IMG/VR virus record: IMGVR_UViG_3300020438_000144 | Location: 1 to 32,659 of that record | Reading direction: 5' to 3' (one strand) | DNA length: 32,659 bases | DNA from: a virus | Shown here: one piece after another, positions 19,789 through 28,352 of the stretch | Layout of the letters: every line of letters begins with the position of its first letter | Numbering within the stretch: position 1 is the stretch's first letter | Translations under genes and position numbers: made by a program | The notes under the pieces: model-generated | What the model saw: the letters and a program-made list of their open reading frames with translations, nothing else | Told to the model about the DNA's origin: nothing | Database searches by the model: none

Positions 19789-20067
19789 CTACCGCCCCTC
19801 GTCATCGGCCCGTTTATACTCTTTATGCTTGCCGTTAGGGTATACTCTAACTTCTCTAGTAACTATACGACCTTTTTTAATTTCACGGCGAATCCACGCA
19901 GGTACAGACTTAACAGTCATCTGTTTCCAATGTCTAGGTATTTCTCTTGAGAATCTTCTAGCAATTTGTTCTGCGTTTTTCCAGTCTCTATCGAAGAAAC
20001 CTTCTTCATACATTCTATCAAAACTCTTTTGAACTCGCACTTTTCTTTTTTCCGGTCCGTGTGTCAT
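19789..20067 (-). CDS. Basic protein coupled to large terminase, 92 aa
   Basis: ATG overlaps the terminase TGA as ATGA. Strongly basic (about one third Lys/Arg), starting MTHGPEKRKVRVQKSFDRMY, with helix-like DRDWKNAEQIARRFSREIPR and a strand-turn-strand end (IVTREVRVYPNGKHKEYKRA). The fold suggests a winged helix. Tight coupling to the terminase suggests a packaging or head-completion role; it is one of two small-terminase candidates. Confidence 0.68.
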   Translation of the reverse strand: MTHGPEKRKVRVQKSFDRMYEEGFFDRDWKNAEQIARRFSREIPRHWKQMTVKSVPAWIRREIKKGRIVTREVRVYPNGKHKEYKRADDEGR

Positions 20068-21560
20068 TTTCTAATCACTCTCCCACCAATACCTGAACCA
20101 ACAGAGGGAAGTCCTTTACTGCCTCCTAACCATTGACCCGCTTTTAGAGTTTTCATAACTACCGGCATATCCGGTGTTCTGTATGTAAATTGGTCTATAG
20201 CGTGAGCCAAAGCCATAGTAGTATCGTTATGTTTACCTAAGTCAACAATAAGACCCTCTCTCCACGCATGAGTTTCTAATTCTTCTAATACTACATTGAT
20301 TATACGTCTTGTGTCATCACTACCGAAAGGGAACATAACTAATTCTCTCTCGAACCATACACGCAAACGGTTTAGTAAACCTTGTTTCAAAGTCCTGTTA
20401 CTTACTTTACTTTGTCTGTAGTCAACCATAGCGCCCTTTTGAGCAAGTAAACTTTCATACATTTGTTGAAAACCTACATCTTCGGCAGCAACCGGACAAT
20501 TACCATAACGCTTTGTCATTTCAATTAACACATCTGCTTGCTTATCCGGTGGGAAGTCATTTCTTCTCCACATATTTACAAAATGAATATATCCCTCCGC
20601 ATCCTGTCTAAGAACTACCATAACGCTGTAATCTTGACCTAGACCGTGTGAAGGGTCAAAACCTATGACATATCGTGAATCATCTCTTTTATCCGGTTCT
20701 AACACATTATTTATCTGTAGATTCTTTCTAATTAGATTTCTAGGATATACTGCTGATTCATCGTCAACAACTTTACACAAATACTCTTGAGCAAACTCTA
20801 AGTCACCAATAGAGTTTTTTTGTTCTAGTAAATAATCTATAGGTCTAAGTTCTTCCCATAGAGCAATAGGCTTTACATTTTCGGGGTCTGCTCTCCATTC
20901 ATCCCAATTAGGAATAGACGACCACACTCCTGTTTTCCAATCATCATTACCTAGCATTTCAGTATGATATATGTCATTCATAGACATAGGAGTACCTACA
21001 CAAAACAAACTAGATTTAGGGTCGAGCATAGGCATAACTACTTTACGAAGCCAGTTTCTTAATTGACCTAAGTTCAAATCTTTTTTAGCGTCTAAAAGAA
21101 TATCATCTAACACTACAACGCCCGGATGGTCGCCTCTGATAGCACTTCCTACAGAAGTACAACGAATAACTGCACCATTAGTAAGATATAATTCTGTTTT
21201 ACCACCTCTAGTAGTATCTAAGTATTTACTTAACTGAGGGTGTTTTGTTAAATCGCCTCTAATTTCCGCTAAACGTCTAATTGCAGTATCTCTACTGGCG
21301 GAAAACAGCCATGCGTTTATAGGTGCATTGTTGAATCTGTCAAAAAGTGCCATGTGTAATAACTTAACACCTACTGTTGTACTTTTAGAATGACCTCTAG
21401 GTGCAACTATACATACTTTGTGAACATAAGAGCCTTTTCTGTTACCATAAAGTTCTAACCATTCACCTATATGTTCACCCCAAGTATATCCTAACCAACG
21501 GTAAAAATAACCTACGTCATCCCTACTACGTTCTAAAGACAACTCTGTAGTAAAACTCAT
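20064..21560 (-). CDS. terL: Terminase large subunit
   Basis: A protein of 498 aa with the full packaging-motor plan. ATPase part: Walker A APRGHSKST (residues 53-61), adenine-binding region before it, Walker B VVVLDD (148-153), coupling motif GTP (189-191). Nuclease part: GFDPSHGLGQD with D302, AEDVG with E360, and KHNDTT with Asp446, the three acidic positions of an RNase-H-like nuclease that binds two metals. It cuts the concatemeric genome and drives DNA into the prohead through the portal. The length is close to the usual 450-600. ATG at 21560 overlaps the 40-aa zinc gene. It is on the opposite strand from the portal, an unusual split arrangement. Confidence 0.92.
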   Translation of the reverse strand: MSFTTELSLERSRDDVGYFYRWLGYTWGEHIGEWLELYGNRKGSYVHKVCIVAPRGHSKSTTVGVKLLHMALFDRFNNAPINAWLFSASRDTAIRRLAEIRGDLTKHPQLSKYLDTTRGGKTELYLTNGAVIRCTSVGSAIRGDHPGVVVLDDILLDAKKDLNLGQLRNWLRKVVMPMLDPKSSLFCVGTPMSMNDIYHTEMLGNDDWKTGVWSSIPNWDEWRADPENVKPIALWEELRPIDYLLEQKNSIGDLEFAQEYLCKVVDDESAVYPRNLIRKNLQINNVLEPDKRDDSRYVIGFDPSHGLGQDYSVMVVLRQDAEGYIHFVNMWRRNDFPPDKQADVLIEMTKRYGNCPVAAEDVGFQQMYESLLAQKGAMVDYRQSKVSNRTLKQGLLNRLRVWFERELVMFPFGSDDTRRIINVVLEELETHAWREGLIVDLGKHNDTTMALAHAIDQFTYRTPDMPVVMKTLKAGQWLGGSKGLPSVGSGIGGRVIRK

Positions 21561-21679
21561 TTTGGAACTAACCCCTTTTCAAAACAATAAGGACAAACTC
21601 TTTCTAATACCTTTGCTCGCATCATACGATTGGAAGCCCAACCACACTTAGTACACTTAACAGACTCCCATTTAACCAT
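21557..21679 (-). CDS. Zinc-ribbon microprotein, 40 aa
   Basis: ATG at 21679-21677, GGTGATGAAAC directly upstream; its TGA overlaps the terminase ATG and its start overlaps the end of the phosphoesterase gene by 8 nt. Four cysteines as C-T-K-C (9-12) and C-P-Y-C (29-32) form a classic minimal zinc ribbon, with sequence MVKWESVKCTKCGWASNRMM. The pattern resembles the small Cys4 proteins of phages, possibly DNA- or terminase-binding. Confidence 0.7.
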   Translation of the reverse strand: MVKWESVKCTKCGWASNRMMRAKVLERVCPYCFEKGLVPK

Positions 21680-23159
21680 GTTTCATCACCGGCGCATACA
21701 ACGTGCCTATAATACCATCTTGTTTATCTACTAAGTGAGCAAAAAGACCTGCACGTTCTGTAACAAATCCTTTTCTATAGTGCCATCTATCGTGACCTGC
21801 TAGACTAGGTAGTTGTATTACAAAACAACCGCCTTTTTCCATCATATGTGTATAATGCTTATGTCCGTGAAACCACATTCTGTTAGAGCATTTACCCCAA
21901 AGGTTTCTTTCTTCATTAGCCATAATCAAAGGTAAATCTAAACTCTTGACAAAATCACCGTGAGTAAAACCTAGTAAGTTGTTACCCCAAGTTACATATT
22001 GCCTAGACTTAGGACTTACTAAGACAGAAACGTCATCTACGTTCTGATACGCAGCCTCTAAATATAATGCTAGTGCTAAAGCAGCAAATCTATCGTGATT
22101 ACCACTCATAAAGACTATTTCTACAGGCGCTACTTTTCTCAACATCTCAATATGCTCTTTTGCTAGTTCACAACCATTCATTAATATTTGTGCAGGTGTA
22201 CCGGACATATCTTGTGCTGTACCCGCAGTAGTTGTACCACCATCATTATCTATATGAAACCAATCACTACCTGTAGCCAAAATTACTTTTTCCGGCTCAC
22301 TAGGCAATCTATCAATAAGATTCTGAGTTCTGTTAAGAAGTCTTGACCTAGCCTCTTCCATATCAAAATGCACACCTACTTCATCTACCCAACCACCTTT
22401 ACCATAATGTAAATCGGTAGGAGATATAACTACTGCATAAGGATTACCTTTAGGCATTTTTATTTTCTTAGGGTTTTTTGCTACAGATATTTTATTTATA
22501 TTAGAAACAAACTCATCTAAAAGTGTAGCCCGCAGTTTTCTATATTTCATAGCGTCTTTTTCAATACTTTCCCATTTTGCTTTATCTATATCTACTAATA
22601 GTTTTTGTTTTTCGTTAAAAACTAATTCGGTAAGTAAATCCTTTCTATCTTTTGTGACTACTTCTTCATCGGTAAAAGGTATCATACTATGCTTCCATTT
22701 ATGACTTCTTACATATTCACCTAACCATAGTTCGGGCATATTAAACTCTCTTGACAAATCACTTACAGTATAACCGCCAGTCATGTCACTATACGCTCTT
22801 TTCATATTTCTATGTGTTTCACCACTTACTGAAATCATAGTACCCATACTATCTAAATAAGTTAGATATATGTCACTAGCAGAATCGTAGTGCGTCTTTA
22901 ATCTTTCAATAGGGGCTTGTAGAGGATTGCTGTATTCTTCCGCCTTTGGCTGAAAGTCGCCACCCCAGTCTTTAATGGCAAACCGCCATGCGTCAATACT
23001 TCTTTTAGGTTCTATACTATTTAGAAATCTAGCGAATTGACTAGCGTTTTCAAAACCTTCCGAAGCATATTTTTCTATTAAATCTGTACCACCGTGATAC
23101 TTTCCCATATAAAGAGTACGGTAGCAGTAGGTTCTTAAACCTTTTTTTTTCTGTAACAT
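21672..23159 (-). CDS. Metallophosphoesterase with N-terminal HTH-like part
   Basis: A protein of 495 aa. The C-terminal half is a calcineurin-like phosphoesterase: PTDLHYG (D249, H251), GSDWFH (297-302), SGNHDR (352-357, the GNHD motif), THGD (399-402) and GHKH (432-435), all metal-binding positions. The N-terminal half contains an HTH-like element (GGYTVSDLSREFNMPELWLG, about 128-147). Substrate unknown: a nucleic acid phosphodiester bond is most likely given the HTH and the neighbour, the terminase. An alternative start at the ATG at 23108 (MGKYHGGTD) is possible; the family start is not known to me. It heads the leftward packaging unit from the divergent regulatory region. Confidence 0.8.
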   Translation of the reverse strand: MLQKKKGLRTYCYRTLYMGKYHGGTDLIEKYASEGFENASQFARFLNSIEPKRSIDAWRFAIKDWGGDFQPKAEEYSNPLQAPIERLKTHYDSASDIYLTYLDSMGTMISVSGETHRNMKRAYSDMTGGYTVSDLSREFNMPELWLGEYVRSHKWKHSMIPFTDEEVVTKDRKDLLTELVFNEKQKLLVDIDKAKWESIEKDAMKYRKLRATLLDEFVSNINKISVAKNPKKIKMPKGNPYAVVISPTDLHYGKGGWVDEVGVHFDMEEARSRLLNRTQNLIDRLPSEPEKVILATGSDWFHIDNDGGTTTAGTAQDMSGTPAQILMNGCELAKEHIEMLRKVAPVEIVFMSGNHDRFAALALALYLEAAYQNVDDVSVLVSPKSRQYVTWGNNLLGFTHGDFVKSLDLPLIMANEERNLWGKCSNRMWFHGHKHYTHMMEKGGCFVIQLPSLAGHDRWHYRKGFVTERAGLFAHLVDKQDGIIGTLYAPVMKHG

Positions 23160-23424: not shown

Positions 23425-24816
23425 ATGGCGGAACGTAGTTCTTGGAACCCCTTTAGGTCAAGACAAGTTAAGGGGGCAGAAAAAACAATAAAAAGAATAG
23501 GGAGTAATCAAAAGTTCTCTGCGGTAGCGGGTATTCCCGATATAGTTAGAGACACGGAAAGGTTGAGACAGGACAGTAAGTTCGATAATGAGTTTGACCT
23601 TTACGACCACATGATTAAATTAGACCCCGAACTAAACGGGGCGGTTCGTGCTGTATCTTTGACAGCCAACAATTATGAGATAAATTACGATAAAGGTAAA
23701 AACGCTACTATTAGAAATGCTATACAAGAACTTGTAGAAGAAACTCTAGATTTAGATGATATACTAATCAACAAAATGCGTAACCTAATGGTTTACGGTA
23801 ATGACATAAATAAATTAGTCGGTAAAGAAGGTGTGGGTATAACCAACTTACAAAACCTCCCAATCAAACAAATAACTATAGTTGACGAAAGAGGCGGTCT
23901 TGGTTCTTATTTCGTAGCAGACGAAGATAACCCTATTATGAATGCTACTACATATATGGTGAGAGAAGGTACGATGTACGAAGTAGCAATACCTAACCGT
24001 GAAATATTACACGTTAGAGTAGATTATAGAAGTAACTGGTTTACCGACAACAAAGGAAGAAAGACCTACGGTGTGTGGGGTGCATCCCGTTTTACATCAC
24101 TTAAACAAGCAATAAGAATGAAATACAACACAATGAACAACCGTATCTCATTAGAAGATGCTATGACAAAACAATACATAACTATTGACAAGTCTGCTAT
24201 CGAACACATACAAGACCCTGCCGAACAACAAGAAAGGTTACTTTACATTATGGATGAGGTTATTACTTTGTTTCAAGGATTACGGGGCGACCAAATACCT
24301 GTACTACCGCATTATGTCGAACTGCATCACGTTGATTTAGGTAACGCTTTACCTAACTCAAGTGATTTCTTAGACAGCGTAAATGCTGATATTGCAGCCG
24401 TACTACAAGTACCGAGAGTTGCAGCAGGTCAAGAAAAAGGTTCTACATTTGCAGCGACATTCAATGCTAACCTTTGGGCCGTACAAGCAATATCCCGTAT
24501 GCACAGAATCCTACAAGACAGTACAATGAAAATGTTTTCTGAACACCTAACACTTATGGGTATAGACCATAAGATGAAAGATTTACCTACAATCACCTTT
24601 GACACTATGGATAGCGAAACACCGCTAAACGTAATGCAGAGAATGGTTATGGGTTACACAAATGGTATTCTAACACTAAACCAAGCATTAGAAGGTCTTA
24701 GCCTTCCGTCTGCAAAAGATGGGGATAAAAGAAAGGATAGTGAAAGTCCCGAAGGCGTAGGTGAATTACCTAGAGAAAACTCTCAACCATCAGCACCGAC
24801 TGAGGATGAACTATGA
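23425..24816 (+). CDS. Portal protein
   Basis: A protein of 463 aa forming the dodecameric portal vertex ring through which DNA enters the head. The recognisable portal order is LYDHMIKLDPELNGAVRAVS, an early helical clip region, ILHVRVDYRSNW-like wing strand, then LKQAIRMKYNTMNNRISLED and a long helix with IMDEVITLFQGLRG, followed by LHHVDLGNALPNSSDFLDSV and AAVLQVPRVAAGQEKGSTFA, typical of phage portals (VPxxAxGxEKGST). The C-terminus is a Pro/Glu/Ser-rich tail. Length is in the normal 400-550 range. The stop overlaps the next ATG (ATGA). Confidence 0.88.
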   Translation: MAERSSWNPFRSRQVKGAEKTIKRIGSNQKFSAVAGIPDIVRDTERLRQDSKFDNEFDLYDHMIKLDPELNGAVRAVSLTANNYEINYDKGKNATIRNAIQELVEETLDLDDILINKMRNLMVYGNDINKLVGKEGVGITNLQNLPIKQITIVDERGGLGSYFVADEDNPIMNATTYMVREGTMYEVAIPNREILHVRVDYRSNWFTDNKGRKTYGVWGASRFTSLKQAIRMKYNTMNNRISLEDAMTKQYITIDKSAIEHIQDPAEQQERLLYIMDEVITLFQGLRGDQIPVLPHYVELHHVDLGNALPNSSDFLDSVNADIAAVLQVPRVAAGQEKGSTFAATFNANLWAVQAISRMHRILQDSTMKMFSEHLTLMGIDHKMKDLPTITFDTMDSETPLNVMQRMVMGYTNGILTLNQALEGLSLPSAKDGDKRKDSESPEGVGELPRENSQPSAPTEDEL

Positions 24817-25418
24817 AAGTATTAGTCGCTTGTGAGTTTTCCGGTAAAGTAAGAGATTCTTTCATAAGGAAGGGACACGAAGCATTGAGTTGTGATTTAT
24901 TACCAAGTGAAAGTAATTTAGGTGAACATTATCAAGGAAATGTTATAGACATACTAAATGATGGTTGGGATTTAATGATTGCACACCCACCATGTACTCA
25001 TTTATCTACATCGGGTGCAAGATGGTTTACCGAAGGACTCAAATCCAAAGAGTTACAAAAAGAGGCTTTAGAGTTTGTAAATGTTCTTATGAATGCACCT
25101 ATAGAAAGAATATGTATAGAAAACCCAGTATCAGTAATTTCTACACAAATTAGAGAACCGGACCAAATTATTAACCCTTATATGTTCGGACATAATGCGA
25201 GAAAGAGAACGTGTCTTTGGTTAAAAAATCTCCCCACATTAATACCTACAGAAGTAGTTGACCCTCTTTTAATAACTTACAAAGGGAAAACATTTTCCCA
25301 TGATTACGGAGGCACTAATTTAGGTTATAATAAAAGACGGTCTGTTACTTACGATGGTATTGCTAATGCTATGGCTACACAATGGGGGTCTGTAAAAAAT
25401 GGGGGGCTTAATTTTTGA
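24813..25418 (+). CDS. Small DNA cytosine-methylase-like protein, 201 aa
   Basis: An early strand and loop VLVACEFSGKVRDSF (motif I-like), then a second strand ending in an acid CDLLPSE, then AHPPC (58-61, the catalytic Cys motif of C5 methylases) and CIENPVS (104-110, the ENV-like motif). A second part has a GHNARKRTCLWLKNL segment and an end SVTYDGIANAMATQWGS, similar to motif X. It is much shorter than ordinary C5 methylases and lacks a clear target recognition region, so it resembles the short phage methylase-like proteins whose activity is often unproven. It is translationally coupled to the portal, an unusual position in a structural operon. Possible role: protecting the viral genome from host restriction. 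Confidence 0.72.
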   Translation: MKVLVACEFSGKVRDSFIRKGHEALSCDLLPSESNLGEHYQGNVIDILNDGWDLMIAHPPCTHLSTSGARWFTEGLKSKELQKEALEFVNVLMNAPIERICIENPVSVISTQIREPDQIINPYMFGHNARKRTCLWLKNLPTLIPTEVVDPLLITYKGKTFSHDYGGTNLGYNKRRSVTYDGIANAMATQWGSVKNGGLNF

Positions 25419-26384: not shown

Positions 26385-26390
26385 TTAATA
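26381..26390 (+). promoter_or_regulatory. TATA-like box before the protease/capsid genes
   Basis: ATAATTAATA lies 25-34 nt before the ATG at 26415 (centre about -29) and no Shine-Dalgarno sequence precedes that ATG. A possible internal leaderless promoter for the head genes. It overlaps the 3' end of the preceding gene. A GCAA-AGTC-TTGC hairpin lies between. Confidence 0.35.
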
Positions 26391-26414
26391 AGACAACGGC
26401 AAAGTCTTGCTGTC

Positions 26415-28352
26415 ATGTCGTGTGGATGCGGTTGTAGTGGTGAAGTAGTAGCATACGAAGAATGGGATGAAGAAGAAGATGTTACCGCAGCAGAATATCA
26501 AGGGCGTACAGTAACACTCAATAAACCATTTAGAACAAGTGGTGGCCCTAAAAAGTTCGCAGTATATACTAAGAACGGTAGTGGTACAGTAGTTATTGTA
26601 AGATTCGGCGACCCTAACATGGAAATCAAAAGAGATGACCCCGCTAGACGAAAAGCATTCCGTTCAAGACATAACTGTCAAACACCCGGTCCTAAATGGA
26701 AGGCTAGATACTGGTCTTGTAGACAATGGCGTGGTGGGAAAAAAGTAGAAGCAGAAGATGGTAGTCCTTGTGGCTGCGGTTGTAATGACGATAATGTAGA
26801 AGCAAAAGACGCAGACGACCCATGCACATCCGGTTACGAACAATACGGTATGAAAATGAAAAATGGTAGAAAAGTTCCTAATTGCATTCCTATTAAGAAA
26901 AGTGCAGAAGCAAAATATGAAGTTTGTTCTTCTTGTATGTCACAGGAAAAATGTGCTAATCACGGAGACTGTATGAGTGTTGCTTATATAGAGGACCCCG
27001 AACCTTCAATGGAAAAGGCTTTGAAACAGGCAGCAGAACCAACACCTAACGATTCTGAAACACATGATGAATATATGTCTAGGTGTATGGCTATGAACTA
27101 TACTAAAGAAGAATGTATGGCTGCACACGAAGGACATACTTTCAAAGACCAAGATGAAGCACATGACGAAGAGGACCACGAAGCAGGTTATGGCATGAAG
27201 AAAAAGAAATATGCCGAAGAATGCGGTTACGGAGAAAAAATGATAGACGGTAAGTGCAGAAAAGTTTCCGTTACCTTAGATTTAGCAATATCAGATATGA
27301 GTATGCAAGTAGAAGCATCTGCTAACGGTGATTCTAAAATTAGAATAGAGGGTATAGCATTCCACGAAGGTAAAAATAAAAACAACTGGTCCTTAACAAA
27401 AGAGGGGGCTTTAGCAACTATAGAACAAATGGTAGGCGCAGATGTAACACTATTACATCCAAAACCTAACGAACACGGTGCAGGTTTTAGTAGAAATATG
27501 AGTGGGGACGTAGAAGAAGCCACAGTCGGATATATTGAAAGTGCAGAATTAGTAGAATTAGGTGAAGGAAAATGGAATGTAAGATATGTTGCTTATGTTG
27601 TAAGAGATGAATTATTCCCTAGTTTAGAAGCAGGTCTTTGGTCTAGAGAAGGTTACGGCGTATCTATAGGTGGTAGTGGCGTACCTATTTCCGCAGAAGA
27701 AAATAATATTGTTTTTGGAACTGATTTTACATTCGACCATCTTGCTATAGTACATAAACCGGCATATCAGAGAGCAAATATAGAAAAAGTTGAAAGAATT
27801 GAAAAAGAGGAAGTTAAGGCAACCTTGATAAGTCATTCTGAATCTGCATCAGTCAATAAAGGTATGGTAAGGTCTATGTCCGAAGAAGAAAATAATACAA
27901 TTAATGAAGAAATGGAAGCCCTTCAAGCAGAACTAGTTTTAGCAAATGCTAGAGTAGCAGAGTTTGAAGCAGAGAAAATCGCAAGAGCAGAAGAAGAAAG
28001 AACAACTTTTGTTGCTAAAGCAACAGAACTTGGAATGTCGGGACACGAAGAATTGTCTCAAGACACATTAGTTTCTCTTATTGCGTCATGGGAAGAAGCG
28101 CACCCTGCGCCAACTCCTGTTGAAATGACTCCTGTTGAGTCTGTAGAAAAAGTTGAGGCATCAGTCGCAGCATCTACAGAATCAAGTCCAGTAGTAGCAA
28201 ATTACCTAAACGGTAAAATGATTTCTACTGATGAACAAATCTATGCAAGAGCATGGAACGCATGGGCTAGTGCTTGGAACAGTACACTAGGTGTAGAAGA
28301 GAAAAAATCTATGGCAGCCCCTAACTATTCCCAAAAAAAGGAGATGAGATAA
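26415..28352 (+). CDS. Cys-rich / prohead protease / scaffold fusion, 645 aa
   Basis: Three parts are visible. Residues 1-280: Cys-rich with CGCGC at 3-7 and CGCGC at 119-123, a domain-like segment RTVTLNKPFRTSGGPKKFAV … RRKAFRSRHNCQTPGPKWKA (31-97) known from marine phage head proteins (DUF6321-type by pattern), then several spaced Cys. Residues 285-455: a prohead protease of the HK97/DUF2213 kind, with LLHP (H348), SREGYGVSIGGSG (Ser410 and Ser417 as candidates for the nucleophile) and FDHLAIVHKPAY (440-451). Residues 490-645: a coiled-coil acidic scaffold (NEEMEALQAELVLANARVAE). Fusion of protease to scaffold is known; the Cys-rich N-terminal part is unusual. It cleaves and organises the prohead. 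ATG at 26415 has no Shine-Dalgarno site. Confidence 0.82.
   Translation: MSCGCGCSGEVVAYEEWDEEEDVTAAEYQGRTVTLNKPFRTSGGPKKFAVYTKNGSGTVVIVRFGDPNMEIKRDDPARRKAFRSRHNCQTPGPKWKARYWSCRQWRGGKKVEAEDGSPCGCGCNDDNVEAKDADDPCTSGYEQYGMKMKNGRKVPNCIPIKKSAEAKYEVCSSCMSQEKCANHGDCMSVAYIEDPEPSMEKALKQAAEPTPNDSETHDEYMSRCMAMNYTKEECMAAHEGHTFKDQDEAHDEEDHEAGYGMKKKKYAEECGYGEKMIDGKCRKVSVTLDLAISDMSMQVEASANGDSKIRIEGIAFHEGKNKNNWSLTKEGALATIEQMVGADVTLLHPKPNEHGAGFSRNMSGDVEEATVGYIESAELVELGEGKWNVRYVAYVVRDELFPSLEAGLWSREGYGVSIGGSGVPISAEENNIVFGTDFTFDHLAIVHKPAYQRANIEKVERIEKEEVKATLISHSESASVNKGMVRSMSEEENNTINEEMEALQAELVLANARVAEFEAEKIARAEEERTTFVAKATELGMSGHEELSQDTLVSLIASWEEAHPAPTPVEMTPVESVEKVEASVAASTESSPVVANYLNGKMISTDEQIYARAWNAWASAWNSTLGVEEKKSMAAPNYSQKKEMR

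Follow-up and report, generated by a model that had tools for sequence, protein, structure and literature searches.

The locus described here resembles several known phage and herpesvirus systems. The prohead protease of phage T4, gp21, is described to cut after L/I-X-E, with the first case seen at a Glu-Ala bond, and its relatives from giant phages to cut after A-X-E or S-X-E (PMC9026906, PMC5694885). A second start codon is also described for T4 gp21 (PMC9026906). All studied prohead proteases are stated to trim the N-terminus of the capsid protein (PMC7411985). In herpesviruses, the protease is fused to the scaffold (UL26), and the scaffold is reported to be made in addition from a gene nested in frame within it (UL26.5), whose product ends in the same C-terminus; herpes proteases are described to have a Ser-His-His triad (PMC4498786). 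The T4 proteins IPI-III and Alt are reported to be packaged along with the core and to be substrates of the prohead protease (PMC5694885, PMC9026906, PMC9958956). Internal head proteins are a known yet poorly understood class of phage weapon. In phage lambda, the C protease gene contains a nested start for the scaffold Nu3; the protease belongs to a different family and is not known to carry cassettes. To our knowledge, herpesvirus UL26 has no N-terminal cassette string.

We analyzed a virus record of 32,659 bases from IMG/VR (IMGVR_UViG_3300020438_000144), hereafter the window. One of its ORFs is annotated here as a polyprotein, in which a series of small N-terminal units is followed by a protease and a scaffold (Table 1). 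It resembles T4 gp21 in the predicted fold, as a putative Ser/His enzyme and, if the linkers between the units are cleavage sites, in having Glu at the cut position. In contrast, the T4 protease is separate from the scaffold gp22 and has no cargo string, and the protease of the window has no match to a Pfam protease family. The residue before Glu is commonly V or A here, whereas T4 favours L/I two places ahead of the Glu. The resemblance to UL26/UL26.5 extends to the assemblin fold, the Ser-His-His pattern, the protease-scaffold fusion and the nested in-frame start, which is deduced from sequence in our case; UL26, however, is from an animal virus. The T4 internal proteins are encoded by separate genes with a short targeting peptide (10-20 residues at the N-terminus, removed after L/I-X-E), while the units in the window are fused to protease and scaffold.

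Table 1. Features of the polyprotein ORF and of neighbouring genes (window positions; residue numbers refer to the polyprotein)
Feature	Position	Strand	Remark
Terminase large subunit	20064-21560	-	
Exonuclease-like phosphoesterase	21672-23159	-	
Portal protein	23425..24816	+	Phage_portal E 2.8e-8, below curated cut-off
Methyltransferase-like gene	24813-25418		between portal and polyprotein ORF; matches phrog_757, which is annotated as DNA methyltransferase
Whole polyprotein ORF, 645 aa	26415..28352	+	uninterrupted reading frame; leader-B-CGCGC-D-E-F-J-protease-scaffold
Leader (MSCGCGC...), residues 1-28	26415..26498	+	
Module B, residues 29-110	26499..26744	+	basic; phrog_7595
Candidate cleavage site KVE|A, residues 111-113	26745..26753	+	
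Second CGCGC, residues 119-123	26769..26783	+	
Candidate cleavage site NVE|A, residues 128-130	26796..26804	+	
Module D, residues 134-160	26814..26894	+	DDPC..GYEQYGMKMKNGRKVPNC
Candidate cleavage site SAE|A, residues 164-166	26904..26912	+	
Module E, residues 168-187	26916..26975	+	four-Cys unit
Module F, residues 209-243	27039..27143	+	helical; sole N-terminal stretch modelled above pLDDT 70
Module J, residues 269-292	27219..27290	+	CGYGEKMIDGKC; adjoins protease
Candidate cleavage site QVE|A, residues 299-301	27309..27317	+	directly ahead of protease
Protease domain, residues 309-457	27339..27785	+	T4 gp21 / herpes assemblin fold; AlphaFold model and structure comparisons
His348, candidate catalytic	27456..27458	+	conservation, spacing
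Ser417 (GVSIGG), candidate nucleophile	27663..27665	+	conservation, spacing
His442 (FDHLAIV), candidate third catalytic residue	27738..27740	+	conservation, spacing
Nested scaffold reading, Met488, 158 aa	27876..28352	+	Shine-Dalgarno ahead
Probable major capsid protein, 303 aa	28798..29709	+	named by position; no family match

Locus, protease domain and internal scaffold start

The head-gene block comprises the terminase large subunit and the exonuclease-like phosphoesterase, both on the minus strand, followed by portal, methyltransferase-like gene, two short ORFs, polyprotein ORF, a 137-aa ORF and the capsid candidate. The same capsid protein is found in all of seven records of 61-72 kb, which were picked for their length. 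The viruses are tailed and, within the collections searched, have been met in environmental DNA only. IMG/VR contains 342 matches to the protease-scaffold part (80 loci were taken), and one UniProt viral protein (754 aa) is related at 42% identity. A tblastn search of 50,697 phage records gave no match to the protease (207 aa) or to the capsid protein, and one pattern scan of genome contigs from 84,980 prokaryote species yielded no protease-scaffold relative. The group may have a marine setting, to judge from modules that it shares with marine phages (see below). No description of this polyprotein architecture was found in the literature searched, with most subscription journals outside the search.

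An origin of the long ORF by a frameshift or as an assembly artefact is rejected. The frame is continuous across the whole matched stretch in 80 of the 80 relatives kept (of 255 found; some contigs end inside the gene), so that the ORF is neither a frameshift product nor an assembly join; the search patterns held module peptides from the window, which biases this set toward relatives that share its modules. The sequence TTAATAAGACAA is located at 26385-26396 of the window, 19-30 bases upstream of the polyprotein start codon. It is present in 12 relatives listed, and no further copy within one mismatch occurs elsewhere in the window.

The C-terminal half is predicted by modelling to contain a capsid-maturation protease with the T4 gp21 / herpes assemblin fold, followed by a scaffold coiled coil. 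An earlier note on this DNA had assigned a protease to the middle domain and a scaffold coiled coil to the same chain, and both the predicted structure and the comparisons agree with this. The AlphaFold model was computed for residues 255-645 with a 45-row alignment; its pLDDT is mostly 80-92 over the protease and 73.9 overall. A Foldseek search against the PDB ranks three T4 gp21 chains at the top, with probability 1.00 and E from 2.6e-3 to 1.1e-2, and all of its matches are above E 0.001. Rows 1-33 of the VIA-align comparison are T4 gp21 (Z 10.1) and then solely herpesvirus proteases (Z 9.9-6.5), and the next fold is that of an Mla protein (Z 6.1). The superposition on T4 gp21 (PDB 5jbl) that gave this top Z covers 129 residues with an rmsd of 3.8 and 22% identity. 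Among predicted viral structures there are 127 matches at E <=0.001, and several of the 50 listed are named prohead proteases. By sequence, no weighty match to the protease was obtained in Pfam, NCBIfam or the PDB, a profile search of PDB sequences returned chance-level matches only, and the window protein does not match the Pfam prohead protease families (e.g. Peptidase_S78_2). Among the families listed for the 45 members (25 of 29), none is a Pfam prohead protease family either.

The candidate catalytic residues were assigned by position and spacing, not from superposed coordinates. All three are invariant in 45 of 45 alignment rows, which were picked by the string GVSIGG. In the larger set of 106 proteins (25 from a scan with GVSIGG and FDHLA in its patterns, 81 found without those strings), Ser is present in 105 and the two His in all 106; the Ser-to-His spacing is always 25 and the His-to-Ser spacing 66-69. 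Spacings of 69 and 25 are those that we take to apply to HCMV (His63-Ser132-His157). One relative (L014) has GVLIGG in place of GVSIGG, with Leu for the candidate catalytic Ser, which may be a dead allele or a sequencing error.

Downstream of the protease, the coiled coil is preceded by Met, then Ser/Thr and then a mostly acidic residue. The 15 bases before this Met pair with the anti-Shine-Dalgarno at -5 kcal or better in 95 of 95 genes scored (from 106 genes, 97 of them distinct in DNA). The same threshold is reached by 22.6% of 1,870 other in-frame Met codons and by 12% of 89 own gene starts. In the window, the nested site at 27876 has -6.2 kcal, compared to -1.7 kcal for the polyprotein's own start; 15 of 26 ORF starts in the window are at -5 kcal or better. 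Where Val is encoded at the nested site, its codon is GTG in 33 of 34 distinct cases vs 460 of 4,174 gene-wide. The Shine-Dalgarno bases differ between nested sites (GGTGA, GGAGG, AGGAG), which argues for selection on the ribosome site and not on the protein alone. A putative scaffold start at codon 488 is well supported by these comparisons.

N-terminal modules and their linkers

As judged from the sequences of relatives, the N-terminal half is a string of small exchangeable modules, which are gained, lost and reordered often. The earlier note had treated this part as a single block. It does lie ahead of the protease, but it is actually a set of separable cassettes; at least six N-terminal units (leader, B, D, E, F and J), the variability of their content between relatives and the internal scaffold start had been missed. 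The two CGCGC stretches reported in the note are indeed there (residues 3-7 and 119-123). The leader string MSCGCGC is invariant in 22 aligned rows, which were chosen for having the leader arrangement of the window. The basic domain had been called DUF6321-like. This identity (DUF6321, PF19846; residues 22-105) is rejected, with no Pfam match and a profile-profile probability of 5.6% over 15 residues. The Pfam library does detect DUF6321 in a cyanophage protein. The same residues match phrog_7595 (E 1.4e-13). Structure prediction of the N-terminal part, which the note had proposed, gave an unusable model (mean pLDDT 39), with module F alone above 70; no chain reached Z >=2 in a structure comparison, which is uninformative on the fold with such a poor model.

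From the relatives, we derived profiles for nine units (B, D, E, F, Fl, G, H, I, J) and applied them to 106 proteins; the scripts that set the start codons gave preference to an M closely followed by CGC or C[GD]C. The 99 relatives with complete 5' ends show 25 arrangements of one to seven units, with a constant protease-scaffold part downstream. A quick tree of the protease-scaffold part (70 rows, 9 of 66 inner branches open) requires at least 41 arrangement changes, a count that stands without a shuffled-label comparison; changes of single units range from 1 (J) to 16 (E). Two relatives that are identical in the tree columns (L073 and L075) differ by one unit inserted from VEA to the next VEA. 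Two units that are absent from the window protein have Pfam matches: I to DUF5824 and H, below the curated cut-off, to DUF3721.

The linkers between the modules are rich in the motif [VIAL]E[AGS]. In 61 distinct N-termini, it occurs 278 times in 6,736 linker residues vs 11 times in 11,674 module residues, counts that are favoured by module borders having been set by hand when the profiles were seeded. Shuffling within linkers is the fairer control: 131 of 198 distinct linkers carry the motif, vs a mean of 42 and a maximum of 60 in 500 shuffles. At 201 distinct linker E[AGS] sites, the residue before Glu is Val in 86 and Ala in 36 cases, and Ala follows in 166. The T4 and giant-phage enzymes cut after Glu, so that Glu at this position agrees with the fold; the neighbouring residues differ here. 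A site directly before the protease is found in 88 of 90 distinct proteins, with a widened pattern for which there is no control. The motif density in the window protein is 1.40 per 100 aa, vs 0.34 in 40 other ORFs of the window. In the family, it is 1.54 in the N-terminal part, 1.03 in the protease and 1.64 in the scaffold part; because the protease itself carries the motif, its presence is not enough to define a site. In the window protein, the borders between leader and B and those between E, F and J have no strict motif, and thus not every module border is marked. The stretch from residue 457 to the internal start also lacks it; the next one is at 575.

Part of the motif is accounted for by DNA homology, since GTAGAAGCA, the 9-base form, makes up 34% of 151 distinct VEA contexts vs 13% expected. 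VEA occurs in 21 different codings. Among 163 automatically detected gaps, which are not independent, 68 left and 34 right borders are near a motif, vs 9.5% at random positions. Exact EA-to-EA indels are striking in some of 13 picked pairs. As a general rule for cassette borders they are rejected, with both borders near a motif in just 8 of the 163 gaps.

The capsid candidate has NVE|A at residues 11-14, a possible propeptide site. Glu-Ala is kept in 29 of 38 distinct capsid N-termini (found by pattern) and absent in nine, which, with capsid trimming described for all studied prohead proteases, counts mildly against cleavage at these motifs. A T4-type capsid-targeting start is absent from the window protein: the first [VIAL]E[AGS] is at residue 112, and residues 1-28 contain no L/I-X-E.

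What the polyprotein may do

We consider it probable that the gene codes for a self-processing prohead cargo polyprotein. In sequence and model, this is supported by the predicted fold, the conserved candidate active site, the putative nested start, the cassette shuffling and the enrichment of candidate sites in linkers, and at the sequence level also by the use of some of the cassettes in capsid-targeting-like proteins of other phages (see below). For the relative product amounts, cleavage, retention in the head, injection and the role of each module, we infer the following course. The first ATG, with its weak ribosome site, would yield few full-length chains, and the strong internal site at codon 488 would yield many scaffold-only copies. 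The common C-terminus would pull full-length chain and scaffold into the growing prohead, so that the protease and the N-terminal module string would be loaded together. An active gp21-type protease would then cut after Glu in the (V/A)E|A linkers, free itself, break up the scaffold and separate the modules inside the head. Some modules may remain with the DNA and reach the next host. The earlier note had already suggested that the N-terminal part could be released during maturation and thus delivered into the head, where it might act on the DNA or on the host. Its release is well motivated by a protease of the right fold with conserved candidate residues and by candidate sites at several borders and before the protease, where cleavage may occur. 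Delivery is supported by modules B, D and I in one family of capsid-targeting-like proteins from Kyanoviridae (T4-like phages). Frequent gain, loss and reordering of cassettes is what one would expect of cargo on which selection changes.

A stronger form of the cargo reading, compatible with it, is that the released modules are effectors injected into the host, e.g. against restriction or defence, like T4 IPI. Module content changes often, and T4 internal proteins are reported to be ejected, with IPI blocking restriction (PMC9026906). Nevertheless, an activity is known for none of the modules, units I and H are the only ones with a Pfam name, and the modules could instead bind viral DNA or capsid; we regard injected effectors as possible, if doubtful. 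It is tempting to speculate further that this is a combinatorial delivery of mini-proteins. The protease motif would double as the cassette-exchange joint, new cassettes would arrive bordered by cut sites, and each lineage would inject its own reshuffled Cys-rich set. Cassettes would circulate between unrelated tailed viruses of bacteria and archaea and adopt the cut site of the local protease. We hold this to be rather unlikely.

Two readings do without delivery. The modules may be cut out and yet be assembly parts only, serving in targeting or core packing, with fragments that exit via prohead pores. For giant phages, it has been proposed that several sites within a long propeptide facilitate its clearance (PMC5694885). 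In T4, most of the core fragments are described to leave the head (PMC9026906, PMC9958956). Moreover, J is the only unit that the profiles find in 10 of 99 complete relatives, which indicates that the cassettes are dispensable, although some of these relatives hold other Cys-rich stretches. However, discrete units swap at a near-constant protease, and B and D occur elsewhere as separate proteins or in capsid-targeting-like ones, which would be odd for disposable filler. A pure assembly role seems unlikely to us. In the other reading, which we find improbable, the E-A linkers are recombination junctions or flexible spacers, and the N-terminal part stays on the protease as a metal-binding or core-anchoring arm. 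The excess of the 9-base form GTAGAAGCA, the picked pairs in which indels run from EA to the next EA and the proximity of gap borders to the motif would all fit such junctions. This reading does not account well for the many codings of VEA, for a site that is almost always kept before the protease and after the constant J, or for the Melnitz-type chain (see below), which carries the T4-type form of the motif instead.

If the cargo polyprotein reading is true, a virus group with 342 IMG/VR matches and without a cultured member in the collections searched carries a readable inventory of its cargo in a single gene, which occurs in dozens of natural combinations and has marks at many of the borders. 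Following the modules between viruses would then be a direct route to new capsid cargo. The gene would also offer a design from nature by which several proteins can be packed into a capsid at a fixed ratio.

The same modules in other viruses

Module B was detected in 31 phage records (E up to 0.01) and module D in 118 (E up to 0.1). CRP-901, Aegir and HTVC111P encode B as a small protein by itself; some Roseobacter and Pelagibacter phages have B as a gene of its own. In phage C48C1 (Kyanoviridae), B is preceded by MKKFKQYIDE|G and LTE|A. Among 12 module-bearing proteins from isolates, a targeting-like start is present in four and absent in eight. [LM]XE|[AGS] is found before B in all four isolate proteins in which B has an upstream linker. 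Together, the 12 proteins contain 36 [LIM]XE[AGS] motifs vs about 11 from shuffles; one protein has none.

A protein from the Methylophilales phage Melnitz (Kyanoviridae; QZI94305) combines a cytidyltransferase domain with D, I and B. From 440 IMG/VR matches to this type, 80 loci were taken, which resulted in 48 distinct full-length proteins (the script preferred M[KR].F starts). All 48 have [LIF]XE[AGS] within the first 20 residues, a capsid-targeting-like start; as these proteins are closely related, they amount to a single case observed repeatedly. They contain 4.98 [LIM]XE[AGS] per protein vs 1.03 when shuffled, and 0.74 per 100 aa outside vs 0.22 inside the enzyme domain. B was recognised by pattern in 19 of them, each time preceded by MME|[SA]. 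In two proteins outside these 19, L229 and L245 (of three listed in full), there is no such site directly before B. The cytidyltransferase-plus-module family (440 matches, including L149:2990-4939 and L168-L247) is in itself a candidate for a packaged enzyme with a capsid-targeting-like start.

Module D extends to viruses of haloarchaea. The head maturation protease gp13 of HSTV-1 carries Peptidase_S78_2 (E 8.7e-22) and module D (phrog_9737, E 9.2e-7), and D is also found near the N-terminus of Halorubrum virus BLv36 ORF44. HSTV-1 gp13 resembles the window protein in that a single chain combines D, a protease and a scaffold-like tail. It differs in that D is located after the protease, not before it, and in that the protease is of the XkdF type (Peptidase_S78_2), with no detected relation to that of the window. 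A profile comparison of J-protease-scaffold gave 0.9% for BLv36 ORF44 and 0.3% for HSTV-1 gp13, and common descent with them is therefore not claimed. BLv36 has a J-like stretch, which is suggestive at best.

Module D also occurs in three proteins of Synechococcus phages (L159, L164 and L150) that have a common C-terminal stretch, which is DUF6321 in L159. L159 also has a DUF5872-like stretch below the cut-off, so that a wider set of small units seems to shuffle.
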